Positions 34,298 to 38,687 of a DNA stretch of 38,687 nt are shown piece by piece. Under the pieces are notes generated by a model. It was not told where the DNA came from, searched no databases, and was given only the letters and a program-made list of their open reading frames with translations. Every line of letters begins with the position of its first letter. Positions within the stretch are counted from its first letter, which is position 1. The DNA is from Eubacteriales bacterium. Lineage in GTDB: Bacteria; Bacillota; Clostridia; Christensenellales; Aristaeellaceae. Both the position numbers and the translations under genes were made by a program. The stretch covers positions 1-38,687 of the forward strand of contig JAJFVI010000329.1 in the NCBI GenBank assembly GCA_021371895.1, read 5' to 3'.

Positions 34298-35539
34298 ATG
34301 CCGGAAATCACCTACCGCGAATTGCTCGATCAAAAACGGGTGGAAAACATCAGACAGATGCTTAAACCCCTGCCGCGCTCCTGTGCCGATTTTATCCGCA
34401 GCCTGCTTTCCACCACCAGCACGCTGACCCGCTTAGCGTACACGATTGATTTAGGGACGTTTTTTAACTTCGCGGCCAGGGAATTGACCTGCTTCCCTTC
34501 CGAAATCGCCTCAGAATGGACGGATAAGGATCTCGCCTGCCTTGCGCCACGGGATATCGAAATCTACGCCGACTATCTTTCGCTGTACTATAAACAGACC
34601 GGCGAGAACGTGGCGGAACAGCGGATGCTGAAAAACCATACGTACGGAGTTATGCGCAAGCTTTCTTCTCTGCGTTCCTATTTTAACTACCTGTTCCGCA
34701 CCCAGCGGATACCTGCCAATATTGCGACGCTTGTACCGCTGCCTAAGAAGCATGAAAAACCCATAATGCTTTTAGAGCGGGATGAAATGCAAAAGTTGCT
34801 GGAAGCTGTGAGCTCCGGCGATCAGTTATCTTCACGACAGGCGGCGTTTCACCGGCTGACGCGTGCGCGGGATTTCGCAATTGTCATGCTCTTTTTAGGC
34901 ACGGGCATCCGCGTTAGCGAATGCGTTGGTATTGACTTGGAAGATATTGATTTTCGTTCCAACGCACTTCTGGTGACCCGCAAGGGCGGCAACCAATCCA
35001 TACTGTATTTCCCCAGCGAGGTCGCTGATACGCTGAAAGCTTATATTGCGGAACGCGAATCGGTGGAAACGTTGCCCGGACACGAGCACGCGCTGTTCCT
35101 ATCCCTGCAAAAAAAGCGCATTACGCAGCGCGCCGTGGAACAGATGGTAAAGAAATACGCCATGCTTGTTGTGCCGCTGAAACGGCGCATGAGTCCGCAT
35201 AAGCTTCGCAGTACCTACGCCACGAACCTTTATCAGGAAACGGAAGATATTTATCTGGTAGCCGAAGCGTTGGGTCACTCGGACGTCAACACCACGCGTA
35301 AGCATTATGCGAGCATGAGCGATCACAGGATGCGGCAAGCCGCCGCCAATACGCATCTGCCGAGTGTTACGGCGCAGGAAATGGTAACCACCGACCCTAT
35401 TGCGGCAAACGGCGATGCGGTACCTTCGCAGCCCCCCTTTTCCGCCACAATGGAGCCACAGCAAGCCGTCTCCATACCAGCACATACCACCGATGAGGCT
35501 GAAACTGCTCCCCATAGTGCTGAAACCGCTCCCCAATAA
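34298..35539 (+). CDS. Tyrosine recombinase, XerC/XerD-like
   Basis: 413 residues; AAAGGGG nine bases before the ATG. The N-terminal SAM-like DNA-binding domain includes STLTRLAYTIDLGTFFNFAA, and the catalytic domain carries R (GTGIRVSECV), K (VTRKGGNQS), H-x-x-R (SPHKLRSTYAT), H (ALGHSDVNTT) and the nucleophile Y (RKHYASMSDH). All catalytic residues are present. The final ~45 residues are a Pro/Thr/Ala-rich tail (TAPHSAETAPQ) not needed for catalysis. With no phage or transposon genes around it and lexA close by, it is more likely a resident chromosomal recombinase than a mobile-element integrase (inference). Confidence 0.9.
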   Translation: MPEITYRELLDQKRVENIRQMLKPLPRSCADFIRSLLSTTSTLTRLAYTIDLGTFFNFAARELTCFPSEIASEWTDKDLACLAPRDIEIYADYLSLYYKQTGENVAEQRMLKNHTYGVMRKLSSLRSYFNYLFRTQRIPANIATLVPLPKKHEKPIMLLERDEMQKLLEAVSSGDQLSSRQAAFHRLTRARDFAIVMLFLGTGIRVSECVGIDLEDIDFRSNALLVTRKGGNQSILYFPSEVADTLKAYIAERESVETLPGHEHALFLSLQKKRITQRAVEQMVKKYAMLVVPLKRRMSPHKLRSTYATNLYQETEDIYLVAEALGHSDVNTTRKHYASMSDHRMRQAAANTHLPSVTAQEMVTTDPIAANGDAVPSQPPFSATMEPQQAVSIPAHTTDEAETAPHSAETAPQ

Positions 35540-35728: not shown

Positions 35729-36448
35729 TCAATTTTCGGCGCTTGACGCGTATATGATGTCGTCTCGCAGGCGGTAGAGCGTCGCACCCCGTTTGGAATG
35801 GCAGAAGGCATCTACAAACCAGTCGATTTCTTTGCGGGCTTCGTATTGCACCAGTCCGTAACGTTCGCCGTTTTTCTTTTGGCCTTTCATGTTGGAATCC
35901 GTCCAACAGACCGATTGGTTTTCGGGGTCGTAGTTTTCGATGAACACCAAGCTGTGCGCGCCCACGCCGTAGTAATAATCCGCGGACATCTGAAAATAGT
36001 CGCCGCGCTCCACCTGCATCATAAACTCGCGGGCGTACTGGCGGTTTTCTTCTTCACTACGTTCGTCATCGTAGCGGAAAGTGGCGGCTTCCTCGAATGG
36101 GTTGCCGTCGCTGGCGGCGACCTGCTTCCATTCCACACCGTAGGCGTAAGTGGTGCATTCTTCTTTAGGCAGATTATCCGGTATCACCAGCGGCACATCG
36201 GGGTACTCCGCCATGCGAAAATCGTCCCGGTTTTGCTTGAACAGGTATACGGTATAGTTTTTGCAAACGTAAATATCTCCGGCGTACTGTGCCCGCTGCA
36301 AGTGCCCGTCGGCCTTCGTATACAAATCCTTTGCGGTCACGATGATACGGTCGATGAAATCCGTACGCGCCGCATCGTCGGCCAGTGCGGGCGAAACAGA
36401 TAAAAATATAAGCAGTACGATCGTCAGCCAACAGGCAATTTTCTTCAT
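35729..36448 (-). CDS. Secreted protein, possible papain-like cysteine peptidase fold
   Basis: 239 residues from the ATG at 36448, after GGGAGTAGGGAA; the open frame upstream lacks a ribosome site. The signal peptide MKKIACWLTIVLLIFLSVSP ends ALADD. The mature part has VCKNYTVYLF (cysteine near the start), QVERGDYFQM, GVGAHSLVFIENYD and SVCWTDSN. This C...H...D/N order with GDYF and AHSLVF resembles NlpC/P60 or other papain-like hydrolases acting on cell-wall peptides. No family can be named with certainty and it may be a binding or inactive member. Last gene of the DUF4956-VTC operon (67-base gap). Confidence 0.68.
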   Translation of the reverse strand: MKKIACWLTIVLLIFLSVSPALADDAARTDFIDRIIVTAKDLYTKADGHLQRAQYAGDIYVCKNYTVYLFKQNRDDFRMAEYPDVPLVIPDNLPKEECTTYAYGVEWKQVAASDGNPFEEAATFRYDDERSEEENRQYAREFMMQVERGDYFQMSADYYYGVGAHSLVFIENYDPENQSVCWTDSNMKGQKKNGERYGLVQYEARKEIDWFVDAFCHSKRGATLYRLRDDIIYASSAEN

Positions 36449-36515
36449 TTCCCTACTCCCGGCGCTCTCCCCCACCTTGGCGGGTGAGTAAAAAGTATGC
36501 TTGCGCGCCGCCGAT

Positions 36516-37226
36516 TCAAATTTCAAACCCTTCGAACCGCCTGCACCAGCAATACTTGGAAATCGCGCTGTTTTGAGCGCTTTGGACGTAGGTGCACAGC
36601 AGATCGCGAAGGAAGGGCGGAAGCGAGCGGTTATACTTCACTTCCAGTATCATCTCATCATGGTCAAGGGGTGGCAGGGTCGGAATATCGGGGTTAAAAA
36701 GCTCGGTGGAATGCAATCCTGTGCGAAGATGCTTATCAAAGGTGATACGCACCTCTTCGGCGGAGTACATATAGGCTTCGCGCACGTAATCCACCAAGAC
36801 CACCGGATGAAGAAGGTTGATGGTCATCTCGCGGAATACATCCTGCAATAGACCGCTTCGGGTCTGTTCCAGCCCCGTAGGATCGGAGGCCATCAATTGT
36901 TCCGCCAGCAGGCGCGGAATCACGAGGCTGCGCTTGGAGATCAGGTTGCCGGCTTTCGACTTGCATTCCATGCGGATTAGTTTATCGGAAAAGTCATAGA
37001 TGCGGATGCGGTACTTATCGCGATCCCGCACGCCGTTGATCTTATCCAGCATTGCCGAATCGCGAAAGGTGTCAAAATACAGCGAGCGGATTGCGTACTC
37101 GTTATTTTCTGCGTCACCGTTAGGGTCGCGTTCCAGCACCTTGTCCAGCGCTGCGGAAAGCAGGTGGTACTCCAACAGCGATATGTAATACTTATACTCA
37201 TGCCTCATCGGTACGGCAATAGGCAA
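36516..37226 (-). CDS. VTC-domain protein (polyphosphate polymerase-like)
   Basis: 236 residues from TTG at 37226, eight bases after AGGAGG; the longer frame would overlap the upstream gene. Basic and acidic tunnel residues of the VTC fold are in place: MRHEYKYYIS, AIRSLYFDTFRDSAM, RDRDKYRIRIYDFSD, IRMECKSKAGNLISKRSLVI, VVLVDYVREAYMY, MILEVKYNRSLPPFL. In yeast this domain makes inorganic polyphosphate from ATP; bacterial members are mostly untested. It follows the DUF4956 gene by 31 bases and fits the recurring CotH-DUF4956-VTC grouping. Confidence 0.9.
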   Translation of the reverse strand: MPIAVPMRHEYKYYISLLEYHLLSAALDKVLERDPNGDAENNEYAIRSLYFDTFRDSAMLDKINGVRDRDKYRIRIYDFSDKLIRMECKSKAGNLISKRSLVIPRLLAEQLMASDPTGLEQTRSGLLQDVFREMTINLLHPVVLVDYVREAYMYSAEEVRITFDKHLRTGLHSTELFNPDIPTLPPLDHDEMILEVKYNRSLPPFLRDLLCTYVQSAQNSAISKYCWCRRFEGFEI

Positions 37227-37257
37227 TCGTTGCGCCTCCTTTGTTGGGTCGGGGGCC

Positions 37258-37956
37258 TTACGCGCCCACTTCGCTCTGGCAGGCCACCAGCGTCGCATCA
37301 TGCACGCCTTCGATGTCCAGCATCCGCGTTACGATCTCATGGCGCTCGTTGAGGCGAACTTCATAGGTCATTTCCGCTCCCGCACGCGTGAGTGATTTAC
37401 TGCGAAGCTTGTAGGCCTTTACCGAGCGGCGCAGTTCAGCGTTAATTGCCTGCTCGCAATATTCGTCGTAATGCACCACCAGCAGGTAGGAGTTGGGGTT
37501 TGCGAACTTAACGAAGGTCAGTACGAACATCAGCACTCCGATGGTCAGCACTACGATGATCGCGACCAGGTGCAGCCCTGCGCCCAGCAGGATGCCCATC
37601 GTAAGCGCCCAGAACATGTACGCCGTATCCATGGGGTCCTTCACGGCGGTACGGAAGCGTACGATGGACAGAGCGCCCACCATGCCCATGGACAGCGCGA
37701 TGTCGCTCTTGATGCACATGACCACGGGTGTAGTGATGAGGGTGAGCATGATCAGTGTGATGCCGAACGATGGGCTGTACAGCACGCCACGGTACGTCCT
37801 TTTATAGACGAACGCGATGATTGCGCCGACTAAAAAGCCAAGACCAAGGGCTAGAAACAGATCGCCGGGTACGATGGTTTTGAACTCGGATGACAACCCA
37901 GCTGCTGAAAGGATGCTCGTTACGCTGGCAACCTGCATTAGAGACGAAAAAATCAT
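37258..37956 (-). CDS. DUF4956 membrane protein
   Basis: 232 residues; AAGGAGG ten bases before the ATG. Three or four membrane segments (LFLALGLGFLVGAIIAFVYK; FGITLIMLTLITTPVVMCIK; around residues 115-150) flank the family signature MVGALSIVRFRTAVKDPMDT. The C-terminal ~80 residues are a soluble domain (LLVVHYDEYCEQAINAELRR, GVHDATLVACQ). The function is unknown; family members sit next to VTC-domain and CotH genes, suggesting a membrane partner for polyphosphate-related or surface-modification chemistry (inference). First gene of its operon. Confidence 0.9.
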   Translation of the reverse strand: MIFSSLMQVASVTSILSAAGLSSEFKTIVPGDLFLALGLGFLVGAIIAFVYKRTYRGVLYSPSFGITLIMLTLITTPVVMCIKSDIALSMGMVGALSIVRFRTAVKDPMDTAYMFWALTMGILLGAGLHLVAIIVVLTIGVLMFVLTFVKFANPNSYLLVVHYDEYCEQAINAELRRSVKAYKLRSKSLTRAGAEMTYEVRLNERHEIVTRMLDIEGVHDATLVACQSEVGA

Positions 37957-37988
37957 AGAAATGATGCCTCCTTGGTACAGTTGGAATT

Positions 37989-38017
37989 ATCATATCGGGC
38001 CGCGAACCCTTTGTCAA
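37989..38017 (-). promoter_or_regulatory. Sigma-A promoter of the DUF4956-VTC operon
   Basis: On the minus strand perfect TTGACA (38012-38017), 17-base spacer, TATGAT (37989-37994), 32 bases before the start and inside the short gap after the CotH gene. Confidence 0.88.
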
Positions 38018-38038
38018 GCGATGATCGGATAAACGCGT

Positions 38039-38687
38039 TCAGCCCCACTTTTTCCCCGGGGTCACAGTCGCGTCGTCCGGCAGCGCAGGTTTCTCACCAA
38101 AGTATCGAAGCATCTGCGCGTCGCTTAAGGATAAGCGTTCCTGCACCATCTCGTAAAAGTACGTCGGACGCTTTTTGAGTACGTTACGCGTGTAATCCAG
38201 CCGTGTGTGCCAGTAACGCAGCGCGCCTTCCGGTGTGGTAGGTGAATCGATGTTAATGGCTTTATCGTTTTCTTCGGCCCAGCGGTTGAAATGCATGGGC
38301 ATTTCCGGTTCCAGCTGTGCGGCCATGGCGTTATAGATTTCCAACATCTTCTCGGTGGTGAAGAACTGGTAAATCTCCCCAAGCCTGGTTAAATATTTGT
38401 CGCGCATATCGTCGTTTTCCAGCAGCTTCAGGATCAGCGTATTGTCGATCAGCTGCTGTCCGGAACCCTTTGGTTTCAGGTAGGAGGTCACGCTGTCAAA
38501 CCCGCTGCGGAACAGGCCGTAATCCGCGTCGTAGAAAACCCAGCGCCATTTGCTGCCCTCCGTTTTCAGCCGGTAGAAGCGGATGTTACCGGTGTCGGAG
38601 TTTCCAAAGAACATCTCAAAAGCCATGTAATCGAAGTAGTTATCCACGTCGATGTTATCCAGAATATATTGCTGATCCTCCGCATTG
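38039..38687 (-). CDS. CotH-family protein, C-terminal part (cut by window edge)
   Basis: The frame enters from beyond the window (NAEDQQYILDNIDVDNYFDY) and runs to a stop at 38039; about 215 residues are visible. The CotH kinase-fold core is clear: FDYMAFEMFFGNSDTGNIRF followed by YRLK, and KWRWVFYDADYGLF with its metal-binding aspartates. CotH in Bacillus is a spore-coat protein kinase; many clostridial relatives are secreted and of unknown target. The visible tail ends VTPGKKWG. The N-terminus, signal peptide and full length cannot be seen. Confidence 0.9.
   Translation of the reverse strand, partial: NAEDQQYILDNIDVDNYFDYMAFEMFFGNSDTGNIRFYRLKTEGSKWRWVFYDADYGLFRSGFDSVTSYLKPKGSGQQLIDNTLILKLLENDDMRDKYLTRLGEIYQFFTTEKMLEIYNAMAAQLEPEMPMHFNRWAEENDKAINIDSPTTPEGALRYWHTRLDYTRNVLKKRPTYFYEMVQERLSLSDAQMLRYFGEKPALPDDATVTPGKKWG

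Follow-up and report, generated by a model that had tools for sequence, protein, structure and literature searches.

The right end of the window (the whole stretch of 38,687 nucleotides analysed here, which is one entire contig of a 2.9-Mb MAG) encodes on the minus strand, in this order, CotH, the membrane protein DUF4956, a VTC-domain protein and a secreted protein hereafter called SEC (Table 1), raising the question of what the first three could do together and whether the fourth belongs with them. The closest named relatives of this MAG in GTDB are Clostridia of the Christensenellales type (Candidatus Limiplasma, Ventricola and Christensenellaceae MAGs). All four coding regions were confirmed, in agreement with a sequence-only reading of this DNA that had placed CotH, DUF4956 and VTC in a row next to a secreted protein; its three family calls also hold, each scoring above the Pfam cut-off. 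As the window is an entire contig, the CotH gene is cut by the assembly and not by a mutation. The VTC gene opens with a TTG codon (37226) located eight bases downstream of a GGAGG. The perfect-spacing promoter announced from the sequence was found between CotH and DUF4956, and two congeneric species (G058 and G014) have identical hexamers and spacing, which takes it beyond a chance match. The gap between VTC and SEC is not conserved in sequence and yielded no promoter-like site, suggesting that DUF4956, VTC and SEC are likely read as a single transcript. After SEC, the only terminator candidate is a weak site that does not exceed shuffled expectation, and neither RNA families nor tRNA were found within the window. 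A tyrosine recombinase of the XerS/XerC type (34298-35539) adjoins the operon and is syntenic in G014 and G058.

Table 1. Position of the operon features at the right end of the window.
Feature	Position	Strand	Basis and remarks
CotH, C-terminal 215 residues	38039..38686	minus	Pfam CotH, E=3e-23; rest beyond contig end
Sigma-70-type promoter TTGACA-17-TATGAT, for DUF4956-VTC-SEC	38017-37989	minus	11/12 match; kept in three species of the genus
DUF4956 membrane protein, 232 aa	37258..37956	minus	Pfam, E=1e-12
VTC-domain protein, 236 aa, TTG start	36516..37226	minus	Pfam, E=4e-33
SEC, secreted 239-aa protein, ATG at 36448	35729..36448	minus	Predicted NlpC/P60-CHAP papain-like fold, Cys62/His165/Asp184

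The sequence-only reading had stated that the three families lack a known joint function. The set is indeed an unexplained one, but a published grouping had been missed: in streptococci and clostridia, the pelDEADAFG genes have CotH, DUF4956 and a poly-P polymerase as neighbours, which were reported in 2020 as Pel accessory genes (PMC7112168). Since the same three families stand side by side there, the triad could be an accessory or a regulator of a Pel-like exopolysaccharide synthesis, in which CotH would phosphorylate a protein of the biosynthesis or of the matrix. However, PelG was not found in the window's own genome (91% complete), and the gene upstream of CotH in the full-length loci of the same genus is a CTP synthase and not a pel gene. 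We thus rejected a Pel linkage at this locus and consider the Pel-like role unlikely. The Gram-positive pel group, in which DUF4832 can also be present, further differs in that SEC takes the place next to the triad here and CotH is a 1050-aa LTD protein. A second known cluster, compared by description, is NELoc-2 of C. perfringens, which also combines VTC and CotH with membrane proteins of about 225 aa (222-226 aa), annotated as 'tubulin/FtsZ GTPase' (PMC2879425); by size and place alone, these are probably DUF4956 proteins. Unlike the window, NELoc-2 has two VTC pairs separated by a resolvase.

The VTC protein is predicted to be a soluble polyphosphate-polymerase-like enzyme of the TTM fold (Pfam PF09359, 115.5 bits for a cut-off of 23), devoid of an SPX domain and of a membrane part. 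A profile search of the PDB returned the catalytic Vtc4 as best match (1e-20), while the inactive Vtc2/Vtc3 scored 6e-10 and weaker. Using the Vtc4 numbering of PDB entry 5iiq (three-residue offset), Vtc4 K200, R264, R266, K281, E426 and K458 correspond to K12, R73, R75, K89, E195 and K224 of VTC. The last five are invariant in 39/39 VTC sequences from the bacterial family of the window and its phylum, and K12 is absent only from two of these 39, which have truncated starts. A lack of conservation of the phosphate-binding VTC residues would have refuted the sequence-only reading by its own account; the conservation seen here does not refute it. In yeast, substitution of R264, R266 or E426 inactivates Vtc4 (PMC9911596, PMC8749416). 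This enzyme works in the cytosol, and the polyphosphate that it makes passes through a channel in the membrane whose wall carries basic residues (PMC9911596). The locus therefore shares with the eukaryotic VTC complex (Vtc4/Vtc3/Vtc1) a TTM polymerase domain, all the catalytic residues and a membrane subunit as partner, but the bacterial enzyme has neither the SPX domain nor a fused membrane part, and its membrane partner is the MgtC-like DUF4956 instead of a Vtc1-type domain. The membrane polyphosphate system proposed by the sequence-only reading was a fair guess in view of these invariant residues, from which polyphosphate synthesis by VTC can be predicted. VTC scores in 288 of the 300 genomes of the family. 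In Corynebacterium glutamicum, which is a laboratory species, hits were obtained for VTC, DUF4956 and CotH alike. As PPK1 is also encoded in the genus of the window, including its own genome, VTC would not be needed to make bulk polyphosphate, and bulk storage is an unlikely role for it.

The DUF4956 protein (Pfam PF16316, 48.4 bits for a cut-off of 30.6) is predicted by its AF2 model (pLDDT 78, pTM 0.59) to consist of five membrane helices followed by a C-terminal beta-alpha-beta-beta-alpha-beta domain of the ferredoxin/ACT-like type, an architecture that it would share with the MgtC/SapB family. The best solved match in Foldseek was the C-terminal domain of MgtC (2lqj); many ferredoxin-like folds tie in VIA-align, and a sequence search of the PDB with DUF4956 gave no match. 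The sequence match to MgtC is weak (NCBIfam 9e-4; Pfam PF02308 15.2 bits, below the cut-off of 31.4). The likeness is weakened by this sub-threshold score, by how common the ferredoxin-like fold is and by the middling quality of the model, and we describe DUF4956 as resembling the MgtC family without classing it as a member. It also differs from MgtC/SapB proteins by having VTC as genetic partner and by an invariant R-F-R motif: G94, R100-F101-R102 and G121 are found in 39/39 sequences of the family and phylum.

TTM proteins include hydrolases, and proteins of the MgtC-like type regulate membrane energetics. Together with the ACT-like domain predicted in DUF4956, this would fit a VTC that is no polymerase: it would instead be a phosphohydrolase of the TTM fold, or a binding protein, which would sense polyphosphate or nucleotides and regulate DUF4956 as an MgtC-like transporter. 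The profile nevertheless fits Vtc4 best and all the Vtc4 catalytic residues are kept, which makes a hydrolase or sensor quite improbable.

DUF4956 adjoins VTC in 49/49 fetched VTC loci as well as in the window (45 distinct loci of the family), and in the phylum, where 27 of 199 sampled genomes carry DUF4956, VTC adjoins it at all 20 of the loci that were read. The third gene at these 20 loci encodes CotH in nine and Cthe_2159 in eight (one locus having both), and an LRR plus LTD protein in two; the remaining two present a divergent cell-wall-binding CWB2 protein or nothing recognised. In the family of the window, the third gene is CotH (~1050 aa) or Cthe_2159, with CotH on both sides at one locus. 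The gene beside VTC-DUF4956 thus usually encodes an exported protein, whether LTD/CotH, Cthe_2159 or LRR-LTD. Cthe_2159 and the LRR-LTD proteins are not kinases, hence the product of VTC-DUF4956 need not be the donor of a kinase. What is new here is that VTC-DUF4956 is an invariant core with exchangeable exported partners, to which are added the MgtC-like architecture, the finding that the catalytic residues are conserved across the phylum and the status of SEC as an orphan family of its own; a literature search covering few subscription journals returned no prior description of any of these four points.

Some of these loci have further features. At two of them (L209 6222-7379, L213 9995-11161) an LRR-LTD protein adjoins VTC-DUF4956 with no CotH present, LTD being the module that it has in common with the CotH partner. 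A histidine kinase and a response regulator adjoin the VTC-DUF4956 operon in several families of the phylum (L198, L211, L214), often in divergent orientation. Pfam confirmed four of these proteins, namely two histidine kinases and a kinase together with its regulator, the others being assigned from the size and order of their genes; on gene size, L200-L203, L212 and L215 have such neighbours as well.

The CotH fragment of the window scores 83.2 bits against PF08757, and a full copy from the same genus 130.6 bits. Full-length copies of the genus have 1053-1055 aa (L065 9184-12345, L066 7913-11080) and comprise a basic cytoplasmic tail, one membrane helix, three LTD modules, a CHB_HEX_C domain and the CotH domain. 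By the positive-inside rule, a basic N-terminus followed by a single membrane helix should leave the LTD and kinase domains outside the cell. A PDB sequence search with the full CotH gave no match. The GN(S/T)D (GNxD) and YDxDxG motifs are conserved among the long CotH copies that were compared; in B. subtilis CotH, the catalytic Asp is D228 (PMC7821199). The window's own genome encodes another CotH protein of 757 aa on contig C314 (L067 352-2625), the single VTC of this genome being elsewhere, and at locus L084 (7588-12400) VTC-DUF4956 stands between two different CotH genes.

Taken together, we propose that VTC and DUF4956 would form a small and widespread two-protein unit, in which VTC would act as a cytoplasmic TTM-fold polymerase making polyphosphate from ATP while docked on the MgtC-like DUF4956. 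The polyphosphate would be passed to or across the membrane, where it may serve the exported product of the neighbouring gene. In the window, this protein would be the CotH kinase with its LTD modules, anchored on the exterior by a single membrane helix, and the external position of the kinase and the presence of LTD modules suggest that the set probably acts in cell-surface phosphorylation or assembly. A polyphosphate supply to the surface would join three features of the locus: the Vtc4 residues, a fixed membrane partner bearing a pair of invariant arginines and a kinase located where ATP is missing. The source of phosphate or ATP for the spore-coat CotH of B. subtilis was named as an unanswered question by the authors of that study (PMC7821199). 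The sequence analysis itself shows the pairing, the conservation of the catalytic residues, a promoter in common, exported partners that recur and, as a prediction, the topology; synthesis, docking, translocation and use by CotH are inferred from these, and we advance the whole reading, a VTC-DUF4956 polyphosphate unit serving a surface CotH with SEC apart from it, as a tentative one to which we give slightly less than an even chance.

A bolder version would have VTC-DUF4956 export polyphosphate as a phosphate source for membrane-anchored CotH kinases in the ATP-free space beyond the membrane, with DUF4956 as a new polyphosphate channel of MgtC-like fold using its R-F-R motif. We hold this version to be a long shot, although, if true, it would give bacteria a general means of phosphorylating proteins or glycans at their surface. 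A polymerase with a constant membrane-protein partner and, in most cases, an exported one as well would offer a direct, testable answer to how a kinase functions outside the membrane. It would also carry over to bacteria, where the membrane part is unrelated, the eukaryotic VTC idea that polyphosphate is made and moved in a single step.

There remains SEC. It starts with a Sec-type signal peptide, judged by eye, and the sequence-only reading had seen in it a papain-type hydrolase, which structure prediction bears out. The AF2 model (pLDDT 86.5) has as nearest solved folds in VIA-align the CHAP and NlpC/P60 wall hydrolases, with Z of 8.6-10.3 (Ly7917 10.3, 3.5 A over 139 residues; PlyC CHAP 9.1; MepS 8.8); Foldseek alone gave no match under 0.001 and a sequence search of the PDB returned nothing. 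Cys62, His165 and Asp184 are invariant and, in the model, arranged in the papain-like way, with the Cys at a helix start and the His and Asp on later strands, in the same order as in the wall hydrolases. SEC probably acts on the cell wall. It differs from the CHAP and NlpC/P60 enzymes, with which it shares 7-16% identity in structural alignment, in having no family match (none in Pfam across 19 members, none in NCBIfam for the window copy) and in having been found in one bacterial family only: it occurs in 197 of the 300 genomes of the family, mostly at 55-77% identity, and a search of 248 genomes of the order returned it in 17, every one from that same family. A phage origin was rejected, there being no match in phages.

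SEC might be a genuine fourth member of the system, namely a wall hydrolase or a protease that is secreted to open the wall for, or to process, the surface material modified by CotH, and that is co-expressed with VTC for that reason. The order CotH-DUF4956-VTC-SEC is indeed found in all four genomes of the genus that carry the operon (G000, G014, G058, G085), with SEC as last gene and gaps of 25-67 nt. In G085, SEC is followed by a different flank, with neither Xer nor LexA, which indicates that the four genes were kept together through a rearrangement and favours some link between SEC and VTC. The VTC-SEC gap free of promoter-like sites points the same way, as does the fact that SEC adjoins PPK1, another polyphosphate polymerase, in another lineage. 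Against this, although most genomes of the family carry SEC, of 80 SEC loci read in other genomes only two, both belonging to the genus of the window, have VTC or DUF4956 within 8 kb, and VTC-DUF4956 is found elsewhere with no SEC nearby. Other genera keep their own SEC neighbours just as faithfully, such as a glycerol kinase or a phosphoglycerate-mutase-like gene, and the pairs with PPK1 are mostly convergent and so not co-transcribed. We therefore regard a partner role as rather doubtful and favour, as the probable reading, that SEC is a passenger: a separate, family-specific secreted protein of cysteine-hydrolase fold that would have joined the end of the operon in an ancestor of the genus. 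The sequence-only reading had named the absence of SEC from the cluster in related genomes as refuting it. Such an absence holds beyond the genus in the loci examined, SEC being retained in all four genomes within it, and the outside effector imagined by that reading is hence possible but not favoured.

Also in favour of the passenger reading, the neighbours of SEC belong to 97 families across 110 loci, and at 33 of these loci SEC lies close behind an upstream gene on the same strand. As none of the examined loci outside the genus has SEC near VTC or DUF4956, we rejected the idea that SEC belongs to the cluster universally. SEC is near PPK1 at L088, L089, L091, L093, L098-L101, L106, L108 and L135, nearly always in convergent orientation, L135 having both on the same strand. 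We also rejected this adjacency as proof of a polyphosphate role, given its mostly convergent orientation, its apparent restriction to one lineage (TetR-SEC-PPK1) and its rank as one among 97 neighbour families. Finally, a SEC paralogue of ~345 aa with an extra N-terminal part is encoded beside a diacylglycerol-kinase-like gene at two loci (L219 3567-4601, L220 6032-7072).
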